Positions 2,258-18,724 of a DNA stretch of 64,000 bases are shown here, one piece after another. Position 1 is the first letter of the stretch. Each line of letters begins with the position of its first letter. The notes under the pieces were generated by a model, which was not told where the DNA came from, ran no database searches, and saw only the letters and a program-made list of their open reading frames with translations. The DNA comes from Niabella soli DSM 19437 (lineage in GTDB: Bacteria > Bacteroidota > Bacteroidia > Chitinophagales > Chitinophagaceae). The translations under genes were made by a program, and so were the position numbers. Location of the stretch: positions 682,001-746,000 of the forward strand of contig NZ_CP007035.1 of NCBI RefSeq assembly GCF_000243115.2. Reading direction: 5' to 3'.

Positions 2258-5200
2258 TTATTCTACATTCTCCCTGCCCGCATATTCGCTTGGCGCTACT
2301 CCAAAATGTTTTTTAAATTCCTTGCTGAAATATTTGCGGTTGTCATATCCCACGGCAAAGGAAATTTCATTAATCGTCATATTCTTTTGCAGCACCAGTT
2401 CAGCAGCCTTTTTAAAGCGTATATTTTTTATGAGTTCGTTCACCGACATATTGGTGAGCGCTCTTAGTTTTTTGTAAAGTACCGGTGTGCTCATGGCCAC
2501 TTTCCGGGAAAGTTTCTCCACGCCGAAGTCAGGATCTTCCAGGTGCGCTGTGATGATCCCGATTACATGATTAAGAAAATCACTTTCGGTTTTGACCGCC
2601 GCATCTTTGTTATCGCCGGTCCTGTTGGCCGCCAGGTGTAGCGTAAACTCTTTGCGCAGCCGCTGCTGCAACTTCTGTTGGGTTTCCAGCAGATTTTGAA
2701 TCGTTAGCTCAAGCACCTGCGTGCTAAACGGTTTGGTAATATAGGCATCGGCACCTTTCTCCAGGCCCTCTATCTGATCATTTTGTGTACTTTTAGCAGT
2801 CAAAAGCAATACGGGAATATGGTTGGTGCGTTCGTCTTCTTTTATTTTCCGGCAAAGTATATCCCCATTCAGCCGGGGCATCATAATATCACTGATAACA
2901 AGGTCCGGAATAGACTCCGTTACCATTTCCAGGGCCGCGGCTCCGTCCGGGGCCAGTAGAATATTATAATAATGTTCGAGCTCTTGTTTAAGCAGCGCCC
3001 GCAACTCCGGATTATCTTCTGCTATTAAAACAGTATAGGGCTGCCGGTGCGGCCGCCCCGAAATGGCGGGCAAAGGTTCCGGGCGCAGCGGGTGTAGTGG
3101 GGCGGCAACACTTTTCTTTGCGGCCGGAGCAACCAGGTGAACCTGGGTATCCGTATTAAAATGGCCGGCGCCGGGTAAAAGCGTTACAGTAAAACAAGTG
3201 CTTCCCTCTGTACCTTCCGTTTTTTGTTGCGTACTTTCCACCCGAAGCTTGCCATGGTGCAGCTCCACTATTTTTTTGGCGATCGAAAGCCCCAGCCCAT
3301 AACCGGTATTTTGCAAGCCGTGATCCTGCACCTGGAAATAATTGGTGAATAGTTTCTGCATATATTTAGGAGCGATCCCGATCCCCGAGTCGAGGACGGT
3401 GATCTCTGTTGCCTGTTGCTGGTGATTCACTTTCAGGGCGATCCTTCCGCCTTCAGGAGTAAATTTGAAGGCATTGGCCAACAGGTTAAAGAACACTTTT
3501 TCGAGCTGTTTTTTATCAACGAACAGCCAGGCTTCTTTTGTATTGTGCGTATAGGAAATACTGATTTTTTTGGCCAGGGAAAGCTCGCTGAAACTGACAT
3601 AGATCTGTTGAAGGAACGCGATCAGTTCTGTTTCTTCCACTTGCAAATTCAGATGGTTGGCTTCCGCTTTTCTGAAATCCATCAATTCACTCACCAGGCT
3701 CAGCAACCGGTCCGAATTATTTTTTATTTGAGTTAATTGCTGACTGGTGAAATTTTGCTCTTTATTAATGTGCAGCAGTTTTTCAATGGGAGCCATGATA
3801 AGCGTAAGGTGGGTTCGTATCTCATGCGAAACATTCGTAAAGAAATTGAGCTTGATCTGGTGTAGCTCGTCTTCTTTTTTTAAAAGGGCCCGCATAAAGA
3901 AGAAGCGCACTAGTAAAAAAAGGATTGCGGACAACAGGAGCATATAAATTAAATAAGCCAGGTTGCTGCGCCAGAAGGGAGGAAGCACTGTTATTTTTAG
4001 GGCAATCGGTCCTGTCCATACTTCGTCATTATTTGCTCCTTTTACTTCCAGAAGATACTCGCCCGCGGGCAGGTTGGTATAGGTTGCGGAAGGCGCACGC
4101 ACCTGCTTCCAGTTATTGTCAAAACCAGATAGCTTAATTAAATACTTGTTTTTGTTGCTTTTTATATAATTCAGCAACGCAAAATTTATTGAAAAAAGAT
4201 TCTGGTCGTGTTTAAAGACGATTGCATTTGTTTGGTCGATATTGTTTTTTAATGGCCCTTTTTTTTCATCGATCCTGACCTCATCATTGTTAAGCAGTAA
4301 CCCTGTAAATACAAGCGGAGAGCGGTAATTATTTATTACAACCTGTTCCGGGAAAAAATGAGTGATGCCATGATAGCCGCCAAAAAAGAATTCCCCCTTG
4401 CTATCGGCCAGAAACGAATTATAGTTAAACTCTTTCCCTGCCAGGCCATCAGCCGTGGTATAAGTGGTGGCGCTTTTCCGCGCCGGATCAAAGCGGATCA
4501 GCCCGACGTCGGTGCTCAGCCATAACTGCCCGTTGTGGTCCTTTAGCAGGCCTACAATATTCCGCTGGCCTAAAATATTTTTGTAATCGTAAAATTGTTT
4601 TGACCGGATATTGTAAATAGTGGTGGGGCCGTTTCTTTGGGTAAGCCATATATTGCCGTTCCCATCCGGCAAAATACTGTTTACATTAATATTTTTATTG
4701 ATCACTGTTACCTTGTTGCCGGCAACGCTGTAGAGGCCCGGTGTGCCGCCAAGCCATACAATGCCGGAGGGGTCCTTATAGATAGTGCTGGCCTGCACTT
4801 GTTTTAATGCTTCCAGGCCGTTATCAAATGTCAAGGGGGTAAGATGCGTGCCGTTTTTCTGAAATAAATAGATGCCGCTGGTACTGATTACCCAAAAGCG
4901 TCCCAGATTATCCGTTGCCATTGCAGAAACTTCCATCCGGGCAGAATGCACCTGGTTGGGGGTGTAGAGGTAATGTTTGAAAACGCCTGATTGGCGGTCC
5001 AGCACGTTTAAGCCACCGCCGTGGGTGCCACACCACACATTCTCCTCTGCATCCAGGTAAACGAATTTTACCAGGTTGGAGGCAATGCTGGCGGGGTTGG
5101 TAATATCATTTTTATATTCCGTATACCGGTTATTCCGGCGATCGAAAAAATTAAGACCTCCTCCTTCGGTACCGATCCAAAGGTTGCCGTTGTTGTCTTC

Positions 5201-16942: not shown

Positions 16943-18232
16943 ATGTATCGTTTAAAAACAGATCAGGGAAAAATTTTTAAGCAATTAGTTTACTGGACCG
17001 CTCGCATTATACCGGTGTCCGTGGTTACGGGTTCCCTGGTAGCGCTTTTTTTATGGTTGCTGGAGTGGGCTACGGAAACCCGCTGGGCGCATTTGTGGAT
17101 CATTTTCCTGCTGCCCGTAGCAGGAGTAGGCATTTATCTGCTCTATCGTTTTTTTGGCAAAGATGCTGAAGCCGGTAATAACCTTATAATGGACGAGATT
17201 CATGAACCGGGCGGGGGCGTGCCTATACAGATGACACCGCTGGTGCTTGTCAGCACTGTTGTAACCCATTTATTCGGTGGCTCGGCGGGAAGGGAGGGGA
17301 CCGCAGTGCAAATGGGGGGAAGTATTGCCGCACTTTTTTCAAAATGGTACCAGTTGGCAAAAGAAGAACGTAGTGTATTGTTACTATGTGGTATGGCCGC
17401 CGGTTTTGGAGCAGTGTTTGGAACACCCGTTACCGGAGCCATTTTTGCCATGGAAGTACTGTTTATCGGGCGCATCAAATACAATGCGCTCATCCCTTGT
17501 CTGATCTCCAGTTTATTGGCTCATGTGGTTTGCAGCGCATACGGCATACACCATACACTCTATTCGATAACTACACGAATACCTGCCGCAATTGTAAAAA
17601 AAGGAGGCTGGGAACTGTCGTTCGATTTTGTGCTGTTGACCAAAGTGATCGTCGCCGGCATCTTTTTTGGATTGGCGGGAATGGCCTTTGCCTGGCTGGC
17701 GCATACGCTGAAAAAATTATGGAAGCTATTGATAAAATGGGATTGGCTGATACCCGTGGCAGGTGCGGTTGTTATACTCAGCGTAAGTTATTTGCTGGGA
17801 ACCTTTGACTACCTGGGATTGAGCGTTACTAACCCGGATCAGCAGAATAGTATTGTTAGTGCTTTTAGCTACGGTGGTGTAACGCACTGGAGCTGGTTAT
17901 GGAAGTTAGTATTAACGGCGGTTACCCTGAGCGCAGGCTTCAAAGGGGGAGAAGTAACCCCCTTGTTCTTTATCGGCGCGGCGTTGGGGAATACGATTGC
18001 TGCACTTACCGGGGCGCCAGCAGATCTTTTTGCGGGGTTGGGCTTTATTGCTGTTTTTGCTGCTGCCACGAATACACCGGTTGCCTGTATGATCATGGGA
18101 GTAGAGCTTTTTGGTGGCGAAAATATTTTATACTTCGCTATTGCGTGTTTTACTGCTTATTATTTTAGCGGCCACTCGGGCGTCTATAAAGCGCAGCGAA
18201 TTGATGTGCCGAAAACAACCATTAAGCCTTAA
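16943..18232 (+). CDS. CLC-F type fluoride/proton antiporter
   Basis: A 429-residue inner-membrane protein of the CLC family with about ten hydrophobic segments. The pore motifs are [14 protein letters not shown] (78-91, in place of GSGIP of chloride CLCs), [15 protein letters not shown] (112-126, gating Glu118 in GREGT rather than GREGP) and [19 protein letters not shown] (GxFxP-like). GNNLI with GREGT is the pattern of the fluoride-exporting CLC-F clade rather than chloride channels (established knowledge of the family, recalled not searched). The fluoride riboswitch directly upstream supports this strongly. Function: expel cytosolic fluoride in exchange for protons. A generic voltage-gated chloride channel label would be less precise. 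Confidence 0.9.
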
Positions 18233-18265
18233 ATCATTAAGAAGTTGAGGCCATTAAGGCTTAAT
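18221..18265. terminator. Inverted repeat at the 3' end of the CLC-F gene
   Basis: ATTAAGCCTTAA (18221-18232, including the stop codon) pairs with TTAAGGCTTAAT (18254-18265) across 21 nt. It is AT-rich, with no T run, so termination is only a possibility. Its right arm coincides with the left end of the repeat element that follows. Confidence 0.35.
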
Positions 18266-18724
18266 AATGAACCGGTATCAAAATTATCCTAATGGACTTA
18301 TGGATTCTCCTTCATTGTGATCAAAGCAGGCGGGGTGCTCGTTAGCTAAGAGCAATAGCAAGTCTGGGGTTGCTTTCGAAATGGATCGTGCCGATGGCAC
18401 TCAATTCCCTATATTTGGCTCATTACTTCGGAATAAATTCCGAAGTTACCTAAGGAACACAAGCCTCTGGCTTTCTGTCACATTGAGCATATGATTAAAC
18501 TTGTTGAAACCTCCAGTCAGTAAACATTTGAAGAGGCGTAGCTTCGGTTTAATGGTTAACAAGGAACTTTAGTTTCTTGTTAAGAGCGCGCAACTAAAAG
18601 TAGAGAGCCATCGGCTCGGCCTATAAGCTGATCCTGCAGCGATACCCCATCCGTCAATCAGCATCACAAGTATTTTAATAAAATTGATACCGGTTTATTA
18701 TAACTAATCTGAACTCCTTAATGG
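18251..18724. mobile_element. MITE-like element bounded by terminal inverted repeats, filled with hairpins
   Basis: CCATTAAGG (18251-18259) and AACCGGTATCAA (18270-18281) on the left are matched inverted on the right by TTGATACCGGTT (18684-18695) and CCTTAATGG (18716-18724). Inside are perfect short palindromes: GTGCC-GAT-GGCAC (18388-18400), ACTTCGGAAT with its complement (18425-18446), AAGCC-TCT-GGCTT (18461-18473), a 12-bp stem with one mismatch (18556-18583) and GAGCC-ATC-GGCTC (18605-18617). No ORF of coding quality is present. It may be a non-autonomous mobile element or a structured RNA. Confidence 0.55.

Follow-up and report, generated by a model that had tools for sequence, protein, structure and literature searches.

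A 436-bp non-autonomous element of Niabella soli with TNA-type target duplications and an inverted pair of hairpin modules that recur around a Y1 transposase gene

The stretch of Niabella soli DSM 19437 DNA analyzed here (the window, 64,000 nt) contains, at 18265-18700, a 436-bp non-autonomous element bounded by TAA duplications. We consider it very probable that this block is a MITE moved in trans by a DDE_3 (IS630-like) transposase, carrying a REPIN-like cargo that belongs to a cognate Y1 transposase. The observations behind this reading are the MITE anatomy with its duplications, one exact empty site, and nearly the same ends around the DDE_3 gene of a relative, together with the inverted homology of two hairpin modules, their covariation, and the presence of the same modules in arrays around a Y1 gene. 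A transposase of the DDE_3 kind, acting in trans, would insert the MITE at TNA and duplicate that trinucleotide. The cargo would be a REPIN-like unit of two three-hairpin modules in inverted order, which a cognate subclass-1.2-type Y1 (HuH) transposase encoded elsewhere in the genome would recognize as single-stranded hairpins. Since one sequence would be both the inside of a DDE element and a hairpin unit, it would have two ways to multiply.

Boundaries and copies of the element

The original prediction had described a 474-bp block (18251-18724) with outer and inner inverted repeats, without an ORF, and packed with perfect palindromes having mostly three-nucleotide loops. These ends were drawn too far out, and the mobile unit is the 436-bp element (Table 1), whose ends, TAATGAACCGG...CCGGTTTATTA, were set by comparing copies with one another. 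The inner inverted repeat was confirmed, with arms of 24 nt that are 88% complementary, and the block holds no ORF of at least 60 aa. The arms of the outer repeat also exist, but they lie outside the TAA duplications and are absent from the flanks of the other copies listed. Perfect hairpins with three-nucleotide loops do exceed chance, with five (stem of at least 5 bp) compared to 0.57 in dinucleotide shuffles, and a chance origin was rejected since none of 500 shuffles reached five. However, no stem reaches 6 bp, only three of the five hairpins lie in the modules (two are at the ends), and the longest palindromes have two-nucleotide loops.

Table 1. Features of the block and its flanks, in window positions
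Feature	Position	Strand	Basis or remark
Outer arm CCATTAAGG	18251-18259	.	host flank, outside element
Three-nucleotide-loop hairpin, left end	18253-18265		spans left end
Target duplication TAA, left	18262-18264	.	sequence
Terminal inverted repeat TAATGAACCGGTATCAAAATTAT, left	18265-18287	+	nearly same ends on G006 DDE_3 transposase element
MITE left arm	18288-18378	+	mean identity 96% among 11 close copies
Module A	18379-18474	+	three hairpins; covariation and model R1
Module A hairpins	18388-18400; 18425-18446; 18461-18473		loop GAT; two-nucleotide loop; loop TCT
Inter-module spacer	18475-18531	.	lowest conservation of all parts, 88%
Module B, inverted relative of module A	18532-18626	-	reciprocal R1/R2 cross-hits; covariation
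Module B hairpins	18533-18545; 18556-18583; 18605-18617		one G-T pair; two-nucleotide loop, one G-T pair; loop ATC
MITE right arm	18627-18676	+	mean identity 94.5% among 11 close copies
Three-nucleotide-loop hairpin, right end	18672-18684
Terminal inverted repeat, right	18677-18700	-	terminal-repeat comparison
Target duplication TAA, right	18701-18703	.	sequence
Outer arm CCTTAATGG	18716-18724	.	host flank, outside element

The block has at least 36 matches in its own genome (40 of 66 candidates scored), and among the matches listed there are 10 near-full-length copies besides the block itself, with identities of 84-95%. Close copies measure 435-436 bp, while L017 and L018 are 26 bp longer at 462 bp. 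Matches to the block were observed in 11 of 17 genus genomes (own genome included), and in many of these the match is confined to the terminal repeat or the modules. A search with the exact terminal pattern matched two named contigs, both from Niabella.

Smaller MITEs share the same ends. Two of these measure 263 bp (L081, L088), and their matches, with E-values down to 1e-11, are to the arrays around L105, a different Y1 gene of the own genome. Seven others of 128-141 bp (L083, L092, L050, L052, L044, L043, L034) contain two hairpins each (GGTTTGTG.., GGGCAGTG.. or GGTCAGTG..) whose loops are roughly complementary. At E 0.01, the hairpins of the 128-bp MITEs matched none of the Y1 loci examined.

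Target duplications and an empty site

Terminal repeats were paired by a script across all loci, giving 52 rows. Ten own-genome rows (L001, L005 (two), L017 (two), L028, L029, L033 (two), L083) were excluded as cross-pairs of nested elements or implausible partners, and 17 rows from relatives were kept apart, leaving 25 complete own-genome elements; elements that have lost an end, or in which an end is too degraded, escape the script (L019, L020 and L030 are examples). An identical TNA duplication flanks 20 of the 25 (rows counted by hand), the five without one being L004, the outer element of L017, L023, L034 and L081. Across all 52 rows, identical three-nucleotide flanks were observed in 30, every one of them TNA (TAA 11, TTA 10, TGA 7, TCA 2). 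These 30 rows comprise 20 from the own genome, 7 from relatives and 3 that pair ends across nested elements, which leaves 27 separate elements. The hallmark of the IS630 family is a TA target duplication of 2 bp; no such TA duplication was seen here, where the duplication is TNA (3 bp).

An exact empty site was found for L017, which is nested in a 128-bp MITE. When its two flanks are joined and one TAA is removed, the sequence around the junction is the same as in two uninterrupted copies, across 46 bp for L083 and 26 bp for L092. A second nested case, L012 within a 263-bp MITE, could be aligned across the junction only by introducing gaps and is therefore weak evidence of an empty site. None of 23 joined sites falls inside an ORF of at least 100 aa, and among the 20 elements with ORFs of at least 150 aa on both sides, 13 lie between convergent ORFs and one between divergent ORFs. 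A non-autonomous mobile element was among the options first put forward, and the copies, terminal repeats, target duplications and exact empty site bear this option out. Uniqueness of the block, unconserved hairpins and a lack of empty sites had been named as signs of chance; the block proved to be multicopy, its hairpins are conserved and an exact empty site exists.

Words of the form CCATTAAG were observed at 18219-18259 and 18716-18724 of the window, and again adjoining an element in genome G001 (L051). With these words, the window site before insertion would fold as a hairpin around the insertion point.

Two inverted hairpin modules

The interior of the element consists of two modules of ~95 nt with three hairpins each, in inverted orientation. 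A model of module A (R1) matches module B on the minus strand with an E-value of 1e-8, and a model of module B (R2) matches module A on the minus strand with an E-value of 2.8e-12. Because each model matches the other module on the opposite strand, the cargo is an inverted pair. No R1 or R2 match was observed in the 64-kb window outside the block.

Module hits were kept by length and E-value (61 for A, 53 for B), and 55 and 46 of these, respectively, were aligned after leaving out near-identical MITE copies and L104:1459-1561, an array copy with an insert. Module A had 93.1% of cells paired, with 46 double-change cells compared to 14.3 in shuffles (0 of 500) and 9 pairs with a double change compared to 4.8 (1 of 500), and module B had 90.1% paired, with 52 double-change cells compared to 18.6 and all measures at 0 of 500, values to be read with the caveats that the structures were derived from the window sequence and are hence favored over slid controls, and that relatedness of the sequences can beat such shuffles. 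The further pair types of module A (18 compared to 16.0; 45 of 500) were not outstanding.

With 150 of 1835 candidates scored, R1 matched the own genome at least 47 times. By reading, 13 of these are inverted module B and 34 are module A, among the matches listed. The 34 listed module-A copies are divided between elements with these ends (20 copies: 17 script-paired, L019 paired by eye, and two with one end), the surroundings of a Y1 gene (6 copies), and sites with no listed end nearby (8 copies). Ten other genomes contained from at least 0 to at least 82 module matches each (150 candidates scored per genome), and modules also occur without terminal ends.

Module B followed directly by module A was observed at four places with no listed terminal repeat nearby (G000:C1:3707395-3707578, 1139029-1139212, 1652849-1653032 and 4087018-4087195).

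The probable cognate Y1 gene and its arrays

Six A and two B modules surround an own-genome Y1 gene with its domain at 4492673-4493017 (Y1_Tnp, E 2.3e-27). Among proteins of solved structure, IS608-type transposases come closest to this protein in sequence (E 3e-6), and it reads DHMH and YVQRQQERH at its motifs. Counterparts in G003 (L123; YVQNQEAHH) and G012 (L112; YVQNQETHH) are accompanied by the same hairpin words, while four other Y1 loci (L105, L106, L107, L129) have other words and no R1 or R2 match. The original prediction, which had a mobile element as one of its options, had missed this hairpin cargo as a separate inverted-pair unit that also occurs at Y1 transposase loci. Module matches number at least 41 in G002 and at least 18 in G008, and the 3 and 1 PF01797 matches of these genomes include no cognate-type gene; the gene may have been lost there, or the modules may be served by another enzyme.

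A candidate mover in relatives

Besides the own genome, the terminal pattern was found outside the genus in two of 147 family genomes searched (G104 and G094). It occurs 46 times in G104, often ~120 bp from a contig end, and TNA precedes all 27 distinct ends of the repeated element among the loci fetched. One end of this element contains a 40-aa reading frame with 19 full or near-full copies in G104 and one copy, 58% identical, in G006. About twenty copies with an identical end sequence (loci among L137-L196) suggest that the G104 element may have moved recently. PF13358 had no match in G104, where the gene interior is missing at the contig ends, and no Pfam or NCBIfam model matched its two end fragments. 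Positions 3335-3454 of G104 locus L168 hold a 120-bp element with similar ends, a TAA duplication and a hairpin (GTAGAGACGC..GCGTCTCTAC).

The related element of putatively autonomous type with nearly the same ends is a single G006 copy (L178/L271) of 1.1 kb, with both ends present and one mismatch in each to the search pattern. It resembles the IS630 family and its MITEs in its DDE_3 and winged-helix domains, with gene pieces matching DDE_3 (E 2.6e-17) and HTH_33 (E 1.8e-14). Its transposase gene is split over two overlapping frames, which may reflect decay or programmed frameshifting, and its flanks, TTA and TAA, are not identical. The own genome gave no DDE_3 match with PF13358 and no autonomous partner through the 40-aa end fragment, so the partner is absent or unrecognized there. 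Other DDE_3 matches in G006 (L267, L269) and G002 (L268, L270) were set aside, having no terminal repeat with fewer than four mismatches.

Alternative readings

The hairpins could be the mere interior of a DDE MITE, kept because they are useful, for example as a bidirectional terminator or as an RNA stabilizer between convergent genes, with the likeness to the Y1 locus resulting from elements landing there. The predominance of convergent neighbors (13 of 20 elements), the absence of sites from ORFs of at least 100 aa (0 of 23), and the location of 20 of the 34 listed module-A copies within elements with these ends all agree with such a role. We nevertheless find it improbable, since no terminal repeat is listed near the Y1 array, modules exist without the ends, and G003 contains at least 82 module matches yet no listed terminal-repeat match. 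The sharing of the same words by Y1 counterparts in three genomes, and the lack of R1 or R2 matches at four other Y1 loci, also argue against mere landing.

A structured RNA had been suggested from the start, and the structure itself is upheld by covariation and by a strong fold (z-scores of the block of -5.6 on the plus and -5.1 on the minus strand). However, DNA hairpins should covary just as RNA would, and covariation cannot separate the two. The block with its flanks matched none of the 4227 Rfam models at E-values up to 5, and L122, L105 and L024 had no Rfam match at gathering scores. These results, the range from 0 to 82 matches per genome (150 candidates scored each), and the duplications and nesting make a non-coding RNA with a cellular function quite unlikely. 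It is scarcely credible that a Y1 transposase moved the whole 436-bp element, ends included, even with a cognate Y1 gene in the genome and its modules inside the element. IS200/IS605-type transposition leaves no target duplication, whereas these elements are flanked by duplications and share their ends with a DDE_3 element, and the 128-bp and 263-bp elements have the same ends and not these modules.

Under the preferred reading of a DDE-moved MITE with a REPIN-like cargo, the DDE enzyme presumably moved the own-genome copies and the Y1 enzyme probably binds and cleaves the hairpins. We regard the spread of REP units as hard to observe. Here the units are found singly, as arrays beside the enzyme gene, and within an element that duplicates its target, so that the two routes of spread could be separated by comparing strains.

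Relation to known systems

As presented in the parts of PMC3116915 and PMC6006769 drawn on here, REPINs and BIMEs with their RAYT (TnpA-REP) enzymes resemble the modules in being inverted palindromic pairs that are intergenic and dispersed, that form arrays on either side of a Y1 transposase gene, and that differ from one Y1 gene of a genome to another. The present unit differs from these in its length of ~95 nt with three hairpins, its lack of a GT[AG]G foot, its closure mostly by C-NNN-G, a loop that differs between the arms, and a Y1 gene of subclass-1.2 type. TIRtrons and composites of REPs and stem-loops (BMC Genomics 2013, 14:522, PMC3733652) also join inverted repeats to REP-like palindromes and Y1 genes; in the sections of that paper drawn on, however, it is the Y1 gene itself that lies between the TIRs, and no target-duplicating DDE element is described. 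Open-licence PMC content under REPINs inside MITEs, Bacteroidetes REPs and IS630 MITEs yielded nothing on a REPIN-in-MITE composite.

Hairpins around other Y1 genes

We lean towards a broader reading in which subclass-1.2 Y1 transposases would be the RAYTs of a separate, Bacteroidia-wide REP system of inverted C-NNN-G pairs, with the strand set by the trinucleotide loop (TAC, TTC, GAT or GCT, with the complements on the other arm) and not by a foot, and with units that have repeatedly come to lie inside DDE MITEs and so are copied by two unrelated chemistries. Subclass 1.2 is characterized in Table 1 of PMC6006769 (BMC Genomics 2018, 19:475) by DH[IV]H, WQ and YIKNQKEHH, with a REP entry of 'no', and is said there to be 'generally without typical terminal IS200 secondary structure features'. 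The passages of that survey on REP searches name subclasses 2.1 and 2.3 as negative, and for 1.2 provide the table entry and one sentence. The genes examined here appear to resemble the survey's subclass 1.2 in WQ, the Y---Q--HH motif and a length of about 150 aa, but most of them sit among hairpins, and the lack of REP association in the survey's table does not describe them. Many genes of a transposase group listed there as REP-less are thus surrounded by such hairpins, which suggests a candidate substrate for a Y1 subclass that has none in the parts of the survey drawn on.

Y1 loci were collected with PF01797 in 9 genus genomes and with the L108 protein in 60 family genomes and 60 genomes of the class, which we take to be Bacteroidia; the sample leans to kin of the L108 protein, as best matches were taken first. 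Of 94 loci, two had no gene, 72 had Y---Q ending in HH or RH, three had Y---NP and 17 had neither. Assignment to subclass 1.2 was made by motifs and not by the profiles of the survey authors, using the loose Y---Q motif (72 of 92 genes), with HuH, whose residue varies, and WQ judged by eye.

The 72 loci had a mean of 6.03 hairpins with three-nucleotide loops within 700 bp on each side, compared to 1.85 in shuffles. For loops of 2, 4, 5 and 6 nt the means were 2.6, 3.0, 4.1 and 2.5, respectively, with the 5-nt value partly recounting the same hairpins. A level of 1 in 100 or better was reached by 33 of 71 loci and not by 38 (L217 was left out, its flank being too short to shuffle). For the 71 distinct genes (L208 duplicates L105), 302 of 423 hairpins close with C-G and 10 with G-C. 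C-closed (C-NNN-G) hairpins averaged 4.25 per locus compared to 0.29 once the same flanks had been shuffled, a difference of ~15-fold, with at least three at 48 of 71 loci and none at 7. Their density was 3.09 per kb, compared to 0.29 per kb (3 hairpins) in 10.3 kb of window sequence free of ORFs of 150 aa, and 44 mostly coding tiles had 0.14 per 1400 bp. Complementary loops were similarly frequent (TAC 53 and GTA 45; TTC 31 and GAA 27; GAT 20 and ATC 21), with AGC (21) and GCT (9) uneven. The GT[AG]G foot was seen in 3 of 291 oriented hairpins compared to 10 for the reversed motif.

Across 44 loci, stem sharing rises with protein similarity (r 0.37, p 0.0005), a correlation that is no proof of coevolution because close relatives share flanks by descent. 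The three Y---NP genes had 5, 0 and 7 hairpins with three-nucleotide loops and a mean of 0.67 C-closed hairpins, a number of genes too small to contrast subclasses. The 17 unclassified or broken genes had a mean of 4.0 hairpins with three-nucleotide loops and a mean of 2.24 C-closed hairpins.
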